Shown here in pieces: positions 14,063 to 21,987 of a stretch of 36,959 nucleotides of DNA. The notes beneath the pieces are model-generated. The model saw only the letters and a list, made by a program, of their open reading frames with translations, was not told the DNA's origin and did no database searches. The stretch comes from an uncultured Planctomycetota bacterium (GTDB taxonomy: Bacteria; Planctomycetota; Brocadiia; CAIUPP01), in contig CAIUPP010000087.1 of assembly GCA_903901045.1 (NCBI GenBank), forward strand, positions 1-36,959, in the 5' to 3' direction. How positions within the stretch are numbered: the stretch's first letter is position 1; each line of letters starts with the position of its first letter. The position numbers and the translations under genes are program-made.

Positions 14063-14096
14063 TTGACATAACGTGACTATGTGATAGAATAGTCAC
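14063..14096 (+). promoter_or_regulatory. ars promoter and ArsR-type operator
   Basis: TTGACA (14063-14068), 16 bp, TAGAAT (14085-14090). The inverted repeat GTGACTAT (14073-14080) and ATAGTCAC (14089-14096) spans the spacer and the -10. An ArsR repressor dimer here would block transcription. The start codon at 14099 lies 8 nt after the -10, so the transcript is probably leaderless. Confidence 0.75.
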
Positions 14097-14098
14097 AT

Positions 14099-14518
14099 AT
14101 GAAGAATCCGAAGAAGGCCCCAAAACCCCCGGACGCTTTGGAATTGCGCCGGCTGGCCGCGAAGGCGGAGTTGGTGAAGGCGCTGGCGCACCCGCTGCGG
14201 CTGGCGATCGTCGAATTCCTGGCCGATGGCGAGCGCTGCGTCTGCGAAATCGCCGAACTGGCCGGCGCCGAGCGCTCCAACATCTCCCGCCACCTCGCGC
14301 TCATGGTGCGCGCGGGGGTCCTTTCCAATCGCAAGCAGGGGTTGCAGGTGTACTACAGCCTGCGCTGCCGCTGCATCGGCGAGTTCATGCGCTGCGTGAC
14401 CGACCTGCTGCGCGAGCGCGTGGAGGAAAGCGCCTGCTTGTTGAGCGGGCGCAGGGGCGCGAAAGAGGAATGTGTTTCATGCAGAGATTCCGCCGGCAAA
14501 CAGGGGAGAGGTCGATGA
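14099..14518 (+). CDS. arsR: ArsR-family metalloregulator of the arsenic island
   Basis: 139 aa winged-helix repressor. The metal-box motif ERCVCEIAEL (about 43-52) has the two Cys of the classic ELCVCDL arsenite-binding site. The recognition helix is in RSNISRHLALMVRAGVL. Further Cys are in the C-terminal region (RCRCIGEFMRC, ACLL, ECVSC), possibly extra metalloid ligands. Arsenite binding would release it from the palindrome that overlaps its promoter. No Shine-Dalgarno is visible. The stop overlaps the next ATG (ATGA), so it is coupled to the small thioredoxin. Confidence 0.93.
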   Translation: MKNPKKAPKPPDALELRRLAAKAELVKALAHPLRLAIVEFLADGERCVCEIAELAGAERSNISRHLALMVRAGVLSNRKQGLQVYYSLRCRCIGEFMRCVTDLLRERVEESACLLSGRRGAKEECVSCRDSAGKQGRGR

Positions 14519-14748
14519 AGAAGCTGCAAGTACTGGGCACGGGATGCCCGAAGTGCAAGAAATTGGCGGAGAACGCCGAGGCCGCGGCCAAGGCGCTGGG
14601 GATCGAATACACGCTGGAGAAAGTCACGAACATCAGCGATATCATGAAGTTCGGCGTGATGACGACTCCGGCCCTGGCGGTGGATGGCGTGGTGACGTCC
14701 GCGGGCAAGGTGCCGAGTGTTGACGAAATCAAGTCCATGATGAGTTAG
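14515..14748 (+). CDS. Small thioredoxin-like redox-active disulfide protein
   Basis: 77 aa, the size of the glutaredoxin-like redox-active disulfide protein 2 family. The catalytic Cys pair is in GTGCPKC (Cys11, Cys14), and the cis-Pro loop is MTTPALAV. No signal peptide, so it is cytosolic. This family is often found beside ArsP/SO_0444-type permeases and arsenic genes. It may supply electrons to ArsC, or pass thiol-bound arsenite. GGGAGAGG precedes the ATG at 14515, which overlaps the arsR stop. Confidence 0.88.
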   Translation: MKKLQVLGTGCPKCKKLAENAEAAAKALGIEYTLEKVTNISDIMKFGVMTTPALAVDGVVTSAGKVPSVDEIKSMMS

Positions 14749-14760
14749 GGAGGACGGTCC

Positions 14761-19347: not shown

Positions 19348-19560
19348 TCCGTCATTGCGAGGTCGGCGCGCTGCAAACTGTTCATGGCTCTATGGCGTCG
19401 TCGCGCCGGCCGTGGCAATCTTCCGGTTCTGGAGCCCTCTTTGCCGGCGAACGGCGGCGGGGGCGCGCGGGTGGCGAAGCAGGAAGATCGCCACGTTCGC
19501 GCCGGGACCGCATGGGAGCTTTTTGACGCCTATTGGCGGCGCTCACTCGCGATGACAATT
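19348..19560. repeat. GTCATTGCGAGG-type inverted-repeat element, copy 1
   Basis: Outer ends GTCATTGCGAGG (19351) and CTCGCGATGAC (19546-19556); inner arms GTGGCAATCTTCC (19412-19424) and GGAAGATCGCCAC (19482-19494). Similar elements are scattered in many bacterial genomes. It separates arsC from acr3 and fills most of the 284-bp gap. I see no gene in it. Confidence 0.8.
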
Positions 19561-19620
19561 GTTACGGCGCCAGCGAACAAAGCGTACCCCAGTTCTTCGA
19601 GTACAGAGGAGTAATGGAAG

Positions 19621-20748
19621 ATGACCTCCGGCATTTCGAGGCGATTATCTTTTCTCGACCGTTTCCTGACGCTGTGGATCTTCCTTGCCATGGCTGCCGG
19701 GGTGGGGCTGGGGTACGTTGCGCCCTCGGTGGGGAATTGGATCAGCTCGCTCCGCCCGGAAGGGACGCAGACCAGCATTCCCATCGCCATCGGCCTGATC
19801 CTCATGATGTTCCCCCCGCTGGCGAAGGTGAAGTATGAGGAGTTGGGGGACGTGTTCCGCAACCTCCGAATCCTGGGGCTGTCTCTCGTGCAGAACTGGA
19901 TCATCGGCCCCATCCTGATGTTCGCGCTGGCGGTGCTGTTCCTGCGCGGGCAGCCGGAATTCATGGTGGGGCTGATCCTGATCGGCCTGGCGCGCTGCAT
20001 CGCCATGGTGATCGTCTGGAACGACCTGGCGCGCGGCGACACGGAATACGCCGCAGGGCTAGTGGCTTTGAACTCCATCTTCCAGGTGCTCTTCTACAGC
20101 CTCTACGCCTGGCTCTTCATCACCCTGTTGCCGCCGCTGCTGGGCCTCTCGGGCGCGGCGGTGAAAATCAGCATGGGGCAGATCGCGCGGAGCGTCTTCA
20201 TCTACCTGGGCATCCCGTTCCTGGCGGGCATGATCACACGTTTCGCGCTGGTCAGGCTCAGGGGAAAAGAATGGTATCACAACAAGTTCATCCCGAAGAT
20301 CAGCCCCATCACCCTCGTGGCGCTGCTGTTCACGATTGTGGTGATGTTCTCCATGCAGGGGCAGAGGATCATCGCGCGGCCCGGCGACGTGCTGCTCATC
20401 GCCATCCCGCTGCTGATCTACTTCGTCGTGATGTTCCTGCTGAGCTTCTGGATGAGCCGGAAGGCGGGGGCGAATTACGCCAAGTCCGCCACGCTCTCCT
20501 TCACCGCCGCCAGCAACAACTTTGAGCTGGCCATCGCCGTCGCGGTGGGGGTGTTCGGCATCAACCATGGCGCGGCGTTCGCGGCCGTCATCGGCCCGCT
20601 GGTGGAGGTGCCGGTGCTGATCGGTCTTGTTAACGTGAGCCTGTGGCTCAAGACGAGATGGTTTTCCGACGACCCGGCCGAGTTGAGCAGCGTGGCGGGT
20701 TGTCTTCAGATGCAAAAGGAGCAGCCCCTGCCATGCCGAGACAAGTGA
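19621..20748 (+). CDS. acr3: Arsenite efflux pump ACR3
   Basis: 375 aa with about ten membrane helices. The conserved Cys of helix 4 is present in GLARCIAMV (Cys126), and the conserved Glu in [13 protein letters not shown]. Both are needed for arsenite transport in studied ACR3 proteins. It exports arsenite using the membrane potential; no ArsA ATPase is encoded here. ATG at 19621; GAGGAG lies 12 nt upstream. The C-terminus (about 355-375) is a hydrophilic tail with two Cys and overlaps the next gene by 16 bp. Confidence 0.95.
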
Positions 20749-21212
20749 GCGGCAACCCGAAGGCGGCCATGAAGATGTTCCTGGAAGGCTACAACTGTGC
20801 GCAGGCCGTTCTAGTCTGCTGTGGCGAAAGATATGGTTTGCCTCGTGAGACGGCCATCCGGGTCGGCCAAGCGTTCGGCGGCGGCATGGGGAAGACCGGG
20901 AACGTCTGCGGCGCGGTGACCGGCGCGCTGATGGTCGTCGGCCTCCAATGCGCCGTCACGGATGGGAGCGATTCGGCGGCCAAGCAGGAGGCGCATCGGC
21001 TGGCACAGGAATTCATGGCGCGCTTCAAGGCGCTCCATGGCTCGCTTCTGTGCCGCGAGTTGCTCGACTGCGACCTGAGCACGAAGGAAGGTTCCGCAAA
21101 GGCGCATGAAACGGGCGTCACAAAGGCGGTTTGTCCCGGCCTCGTCAGGGATGCCGCCAAGATCATTGAAGAGGTCCTATTTCTCAAGGAGCAATGCCAT
21201 GAAACAAAGTGA
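20733..21212 (+). CDS. C_GCAxxG_C_C family protein
   Basis: 159 aa. The family signature appears as [17 protein letters not shown] near the start, [20 protein letters not shown] in the middle, then CRELLDCDL and VCPG. These spaced Cys define the probable redox or metal-binding C_GCAxxG_C_C family, which has no proven function. Its genes often neighbour ACR3 and ArsM. The start at 20733 has GGAG about 12 nt upstream and overlaps acr3; an ATG at residue 13 is possible. The end overlaps arsM by 14 bp, so the three genes are coupled. Confidence 0.85.
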
Positions 21213-21987
21213 TCGAACCCACGACTTGGTGAAGAAGGCCTACGGCGAGGTGGCGCGCGCGGGCAGGGACTGCCGCGAAGGATCGAACTGCTGCAACAAG
21301 CATTACGTCATGCCCGACCATCCCGTGCCCGGCGCGGACCTGGGGCTCTCCTGCGGGAACCCCGTCAGCTTCGCGCAGTTGCGCGAGGGGGACGCGGTGC
21401 TGGACCTCGGCAGCGGCGCGGGGCGCGATGCCTTCCTGGCGGCGCAGCGCGTCGGTGCGACGGGGCGCGTGATCGGCGTGGACATGACTCCGGAAATGCT
21501 CGAACTGGCCGCGCGCAACGCGGAGAAATTCAGGGAAACCACGGGGCTGTCCAACGTCGAGTTCCGCAAAGGGCAGATCGAGCGATTGCCGCTGCGGGAT
21601 GGCGAAGTCAACGTGGTCATGTCCAACTGCGTCATCAACCTGAGTCCCGACAAGCCGGCCGTCTTCCGCGAGGCGTTTCGCGCGCTGCGCGCCGGCGGGC
21701 GGCTGCTGGTCAGCGATATCGTCCTGCTGCGCCCGCTGGCGGAGGAGCTGCGGCACAGCGAGGCGCTCTATGCCGCCTGCATCGCGGGAGCCATCGGCAA
21801 GGCGGAGTACCTCCAGGCGATCCGCGACGCGGGCTTCGCGCAAGTGGAGATCCTCGCGGACCACCTCTACTCCAGCGCCGACGCCGCAGGCGACCCGATC
21901 ACCACCCAGGTCGGCGCCGACCTGGAGGGGGCCGCCGCCAGCATTACCGTCTCCGCCGTCAAGCCGGGCTGCTGCTGCGAACGTTGA
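21199..21987 (+). CDS. arsM: Arsenite S-adenosylmethionine methyltransferase ArsM
   Basis: 262 aa. The SAM-binding motif is VLDLGSGAGRD (about 68-76), followed by the acidic loop IGVDMT. Three Cys match those that bind As(III) in ArsM enzymes: Cys52 (LSCGNP), Cys144 (SNCVINL) and Cys194 (YAACIAG). The 50-residue spacing of the last two equals that in the Cyanidioschyzon enzyme. An extra C-terminal CCC run may also bind metalloid. It methylates arsenite in the cytosol; the ArsP-like permease could export trivalent products. AGGAG precedes the ATG by about 8 nt. Confidence 0.95.
   Translation: MKQSDRTHDLVKKAYGEVARAGRDCREGSNCCNKHYVMPDHPVPGADLGLSCGNPVSFAQLREGDAVLDLGSGAGRDAFLAAQRVGATGRVIGVDMTPEMLELAARNAEKFRETTGLSNVEFRKGQIERLPLRDGEVNVVMSNCVINLSPDKPAVFREAFRALRAGGRLLVSDIVLLRPLAEELRHSEALYAACIAGAIGKAEYLQAIRDAGFAQVEILADHLYSSADAAGDPITTQVGADLEGAAASITVSAVKPGCCCER

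Follow-up and report, generated by a model that had tools for sequence, protein, structure and literature searches.

Why would an arsenic resistance operon carry thioredoxins with export signals and a membrane protein of the CcdA type? Accounts of arsenic resistance usually describe reduction in the cytosol followed by export; the operon type described here, which is found across several phyla, would imply that electrons are spent beyond the membrane too. The locus lies on contig CAIUPP010000087.1 of an uncultured Planctomycetota bacterium (hereafter the window, meaning the whole stretch of 36,959 nucleotides that was analysed). Profile searches identified twelve genes on the + strand, spanning 14099-21987, in the order arsR-arsE-DGC-Trx-fusion-ccdA-arsP-DUF6951-arsC-acr3-GCAxxG-arsM, where Trx is a thioredoxin and the fusion joins a chaperone-type domain to a second thioredoxin. 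A first-pass annotation of the sequence had listed this same-strand run in this order, and all of its genes are present. It had further proposed that the CcdA pair keeps exported thiol proteins reduced. We found that the thioredoxin and CcdA genes are part of the arsenic locus, and we consider it probable that they form a relay carrying electrons from the cytosol through CcdA to exported thioredoxins.

The linkage was quantified on 199 genomes of the same phylum, drawn with CcdA alone as the query. In up to 20 kb around the CcdA matches, neighbouring genes were scored with profiles of the window proteins, and loci of the window CcdA clade or its close kin were compared with controls consisting of more distant DsbD/CcdA proteins. 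At least one ars marker was found in 17 of the 18 clade loci, and at least two in 13 of them. Among controls, one marker was found in 1 of 21 loci and at least two in none (Fisher p 6e-9 for one marker), a 22nd control, L103, having been taken out post hoc once it was recognised as an ars locus whose CcdA is truncated. With these counts, relatives of the module usually do sit near arsenic genes, and the opposite pattern, on which the first-pass annotation had staked its proposal, was not seen. A second set, from another collection and drawn with the fusion protein, a query itself derived from the operon, gave 23 ars-linked loci out of 28. At the level of genomes, counted as carriers of the window CcdA clade at E below 1e-20, ArsE was present in 16/18 carriers versus 27/181 non-carriers (p 2e-10), and ACR3 in 15/18 versus 63/181. 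On plasmid pSCD of Sulfuricella denitrificans (L066, 45837-64487), the thioredoxin-CcdA pair comes directly after a TolC/RND pump, which agrees with action in the periplasm. The same plasmid has a sigma-70 family factor and the complete tripartite pump between arsM-arsE-arsC and the pair, and genes of the OsmC, TauE and FmdE families after it.

Both thioredoxins of the operon have a hydrophobic N-terminus and a CxPC site. The first (15314..15766, + strand; PF00085) is predicted to be exported or membrane-anchored, with the N-terminal segment MKTFWKIAIGAALVVAVGAVFA and the site CIPC. The second (15806..16744, +) is a predicted exported fusion, made of a signal peptide, a SurA-type chaperone domain of the HP0175/PEB4 kind and a thioredoxin domain with CVPC. 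These traits are general in the sampled loci: among thioredoxins adjoining CcdA genes, 45 of 49 have an N-terminal hydrophobic segment, and 39 of 49 have CIPC, CVPC or CLPC.

The fusion has about 180 additional residues N-terminal to its thioredoxin domain. A profile of ten relatives matched Helicobacter pylori HP_0175 (E 3e-10) and, at E 2e-5, cell-binding factor 2 of the PEB4 type, so that the name "SurA-like/thioredoxin fusion" given in the first-pass annotation was right. The Pfam SurA_N cut-off was reached by one relative, and not by the window protein alone. In the structure model (predicted local distance difference test, pLDDT, 86.5) the thioredoxin domain gave a Z of about 17; because only thioredoxins came up when the entire fusion was used for a structure search, leaving the chaperone arm unmatched, this arm was assigned by sequence profile. 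The likeness to SurA, PEB4 and HP_0175 concerns the N-terminal chaperone domain; these chaperones differ in having a peptidyl-prolyl isomerase domain, whereas the fusion has no parvulin domain of this kind, and thioredoxin occupies its place. The nearest named relative of both the fusion and the CcdA comes from a metagenome-assembled genome of Sedimentisphaerales (L001). In another locus (L079, G008:C359), the thioredoxin beside a member of the CcdA group has a SurA-looking stretch ahead of it.

The ccdA-type gene (16747..17481, +) encodes a predicted transmembrane electron carrier (PF02683, DsbD_TM, 39.5 bits for a cut-off of 27), and its profile finds CcdA 5vkv (E 8e-9). Cysteines C37 and C149, each in a Pro-Cys pair in the first and fourth helices, align with the cysteines of control DsbD proteins. 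In 25 of 25 aligned relatives C37, H38, C149, H183 and C184 are invariant, and the clade is marked by the motifs SPCHLASIPL, G(P/S)CTF and GHC. C184 is present in 39 of 47 ars-linked CcdA proteins; almost every DsbD control has Ala or Gly there, and ArsG, the CcdA-like protein of known ars operons, lacks this cysteine. Its part may be to assist redox transfer or to bind arsenic. When 106 CcdA-type proteins were arranged in a tree, the window CcdA fell among 45 proteins, most of them ars-linked, that form one clade (support 99/97); the ArsG clade (100/100) stands apart from it, and DsbD proteins branch on the side of the window clade. The two clades were thus likely recruited to arsenic separately; this is not proven, since the root is arbitrary and long branches were flagged by the program. 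Membership of ArsG itself was ruled out for the window CcdA, which scored 46 bits against NF040495 (cut-off 200) and falls outside the ArsG clade.

As the best explanation of the whole, to which we would give an even chance, an ArsR-repressed operon would include a dedicated outward electron relay that protects or repairs thiols of the envelope. Within this operon, ArsC would reduce arsenate, ACR3 export arsenite, ArsM methylate it, and ArsP probably export organoarsenicals. Cytosolic electrons, supplied by a housekeeping thioredoxin, by ArsE or by both, would reduce CcdA through Cys37/Cys149, and CcdA would in turn reduce both exported thioredoxins. What these act on is a guess: they may hold envelope thiols reduced while arsenic is expelled and, where As(III) and methyl-As(III) released by ACR3 and ArsP have damaged proteins, remove the arsenic from these or refold them. 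The SurA-type arm of the fusion could present misfolded clients to the thioredoxin, much as DsbC works with electrons from DsbD. DsbD and the CcdA-DsbC system share with the proposed relay an outward flow of thiol electrons, from a membrane-spanning domain that has paired cysteines to thioredoxin-fold proteins that are exported; they differ in that the relay is here inside an arsenic operon and its chaperone arm is SurA-type and not a DsbC dimerisation domain. The CcdA-pair interpretation of the first-pass annotation is supported in part, by the ars linkage, the export signals of the thioredoxins and the conservation of both CcdA redox cysteines.

Several points weigh against this explanation. 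No computed result points to a target of the exported thioredoxins, and a relay with envelope-thiol protection or repair as its target is proposed tentatively, well below the relay as such. Five clade members (L013, L016, L022, L023 and L079) have no ars marker on the sequence examined, which for four of them is a contig shorter than 10 kb (9.4 kb for L079) and for L023 one of 18 kb. The structure model of CcdA (pLDDT 82.6) had no Foldseek match at E 0.001. Lastly, a paper citing the original work (PMC9144182) calls ArsG, a relative of this CcdA, an efflux transporter, or permease, which makes electron transfer one reading among others.

This last point leads to the first alternative, in which the operon is an ArsEFG-like module: exported thiol proteins and CcdA would reduce an organoarsenical, expel it, or both, CcdA being an arsenical permease and not an electron carrier. 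ArsEFG, the characterised cousin of this operon, was reportedly described by Chen, Zhang and Rosen in 2019, and it is reported to confer resistance to trivalent nitroaromatic arsenicals. Both have an ArsE-type protein, an exported CxxC protein and a CcdA-like membrane protein within an ars operon. The window ArsE (14515..14748, +) is a small cytosolic thioredoxin-like protein with a CPKC site, of the "redox-active disulfide protein 2" family (TIGR00412, 108 bits, cut-off 62), and it matches the MTH895 structure 1ilo (E 1e-15). Moreover, genomes with true ArsG (>200 bits) share the plan arsR-arsP-arsE-arsF-arsG-(DGC)-arsC/acr3, the exported CxxC protein in the middle being ArsF by NF040494, and DGC recurs in these loci. 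The differences are that CxPC thioredoxins stand here in place of ArsF, and that the position of ArsG is taken by a CcdA that bears an additional GHC motif and does not group with the ArsG clade. No ArsF was found in the window operon, NF040494 giving no match to the thioredoxin at E 0.01 and none to the fusion at 0.001, and an ArsF-like motif was seen in just 2 of 50 loci of the window CcdA clade. The 46-bit score and the strong support for the split in the tree also argue against this alternative, and ArsG itself looks like an electron carrier, because only its two DsbD-type cysteines are kept. We consider this alternative unlikely. Two ArsG loci (L166 and L178) have ArsF together with a window-like exported CVPC thioredoxin; the ArsF-type and CxPC-type versions of the module can therefore coexist in one operon. 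Among 274 genomes of the class of Nitrosomonadales, no ArsG was found above the cut-off.

The conserved cysteines allow a second alternative, in which CcdA passes As(III) or a thiol-bound arsenical from ArsE to the exported thioredoxins through a three-thiol site formed by C37, C149 and C184. The clade would then be a second arsenic-specialised CcdA lineage, whose extra transmembrane Cys/His motif, PCH...PC...GHC, hands on trivalent arsenic and not electrons only, a chain of thiols being the route by which arsenic would exit the cytosol. The invariance of the five Cys and His residues among 25 relatives, and the near restriction of C184 to ars-linked proteins other than ArsG, speak for such a site. 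Against it, Ser replaces C184 in some ars-linked members, and we know of no precedent for a CcdA fold carrying arsenic. Such a transfer, in either form, seems quite improbable to us.

The association itself is not new in outline. Castillo and Saier (2010; PMC2963123) describe 8 instances, in 7 organisms, of three redox genes within ars operons, with arsC in 7 of the 8. The window has the same arrangement: all three redox genes share the strand of arsR and arsC/acr3 and lie between them. The authors favoured thioredoxins serving ArsC, and doubted a transmembrane role, ArsC being cytosolic; in this third alternative, the membrane part is secondary. The window arsC (18884..19336, +; PF01451) does encode a low-molecular-weight phosphatase-type protein with the residues of a thioredoxin-coupled (pI258-type) arsenate reductase, namely C-X5-R in LCTGNSCRS and the shuttle cysteines in VCDHAHESC, although its score against TIGR02691 (122 bits) is under the curated NCBI cut-off of 174. 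Still, arsC lies near just 13 of 47 CcdA loci, and ArsC could yet be served by the cytosolic ArsE. Export signals on both window thioredoxins and on nearly all their relatives lead us to favour a transmembrane role, contrary to the doubt of 2010, and to regard service to ArsC as very doubtful. Neither DGC nor a chaperone-thioredoxin fusion is mentioned in the main text of the 2010 study. What is new here is the CcdA outside the ArsG clade with its conserved extra Cys/His motif, the SurA-type/thioredoxin fusion, and the presence of DGC and DUF6951 in ars loci. Finally, CcdA and exported thioredoxins do serve disulfide and cytochrome c assembly elsewhere, but a chance neighbourhood of such housekeeping genes is ruled out, for practical purposes, by the contrast between clade and control loci, and a further DsbD_TM gene lies elsewhere in the same genome, on contig G000:C49.

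Cys-rich proteins accompany the relay genes. The DGC-domain protein (14761..15165, +; PF08859, 109 bits) was found in 10 of the 199 genomes, and within 1.5 kb of ars genes in 8 of the 10. DUF6951 (18548..18880, +; PF22263, 87 bits) was found in 3 of 246 genomes of the phylum, inside ars loci in all three. It adjoins arsM or arsC, with ACR3 nearby, in L182 (G126:C67), L184 (G202:C23, beside arsM) and L069; a match in another group, L183, has no ars genes. PDB sequence searches with DGC and with DUF6951 gave no match, and a search of the open literature for either family together with arsenic returned nothing relevant. Both are arsenic-operon genes by association. The C_GCAxxG_C_C family putative redox protein (20769..21212, +; PF09719, 115 bits; TIGR01909, 76 bits, cut-off 47) had no relative in the fetched loci, and no linkage is claimed for it. 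The first-pass annotation, with its count of four or more Cys-rich proteins whose role is unknown, overstated the case: the small CxxC protein belongs to the MTH895/ArsE family, and the description holds for DGC and DUF6951. These two uncharacterised families, the fusion and the CcdA branch, which a cysteine motif of its own sets apart, are now concrete things to test in arsenic resistance.

The remaining genes are typical of ars operons. The ArsR/SmtB repressor (14099..14518, +; HTH_5, 50 bits; NF033788, 84 bits, cut-off 55) has the metal-site motif GERCVCEI, its cysteines being read off the sequence. The permease (17474..18529, +; PF03773, 246 bits, cut-off 32) is of the ArsP_1 family; "ArsP-like", as first annotated, holds at this level, and the substrate is not readable from sequence. 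The ACR3 arsenite efflux permease (19621..20748, +; TIGR00832, 452 bits, cut-off 283) has no other copy in the genome assembly, and would therefore be the main arsenite pump of the genome. The last gene encodes the arsenite methyltransferase ArsM (21199..21987, +; NF008823, 290 bits, cut-off 263). Spacing is mostly tight: arsR and arsE overlap, as do ccdA and arsP (8 bp) and GCAxxG and arsM (14 bp), and the intervals are 12 bp for arsE-DGC, 148 bp for DGC-Trx, 39 bp for Trx-fusion, 2 bp for fusion-ccdA, 18 bp for arsP-DUF6951, 3 bp for DUF6951-arsC and 20 bp for acr3-GCAxxG. The largest, 284 bp between arsC and acr3, contains a palindromic repeat, GTCATTGCGAGG...TCGCGATGAC, at about 19351..19555, confirming the repeat break noticed at first pass.

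A candidate sigma-70-type promoter (14063..14090, +; TTGACA-16-TAGAAT, 11 of 12 matches, with TG ahead of the second hexamer) precedes arsR; its -35 box, TTGACA, is where the first-pass annotation had begun the locus. It is the sole promoter-like site in 13800-22150, and the case for it rests on its position, since about 1.2 such sites are expected by chance. Overlapping it is a perfect 8-bp palindrome, GTGACTAT-N8-ATAGTCAC (14073..14096), which in the closest named relative, L001, is kept upstream of arsR as GTGATTAT...ATAATCAC, with a compensatory change of C/G to T/A. From the promoter overlap and this compensating change, we read the palindrome as a predicted ArsR operator. Both sites stand 5' of the entire twelve-gene run. 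Just 5' of arsR, the window also has a short release-factor-like gene with the motif GGQNVNKVSTAVRLRF (13368-13832).

The term "island" used at first pass is unsupported by composition, G+C being 63.9% in the operon vs 65.5% in the remaining window; mobility genes were not looked for systematically. Searches of the window for Rfam families and for tRNAs gave no match. Two families of 44-45-nt palindromic repeats, GCGGGTTTGATAACCCGCGC and GGCGCGGACTATCCAGTCCGCG, are dispersed in the window, at 8868, 24337, 31032 and 33350 and at 8814, 30972 and 33296. The window is the entire contig C87, and it has 78-nt inverted repeats (91%) at both ends (31-108 and 36825-36902), so that the assembly probably broke at a repeat.

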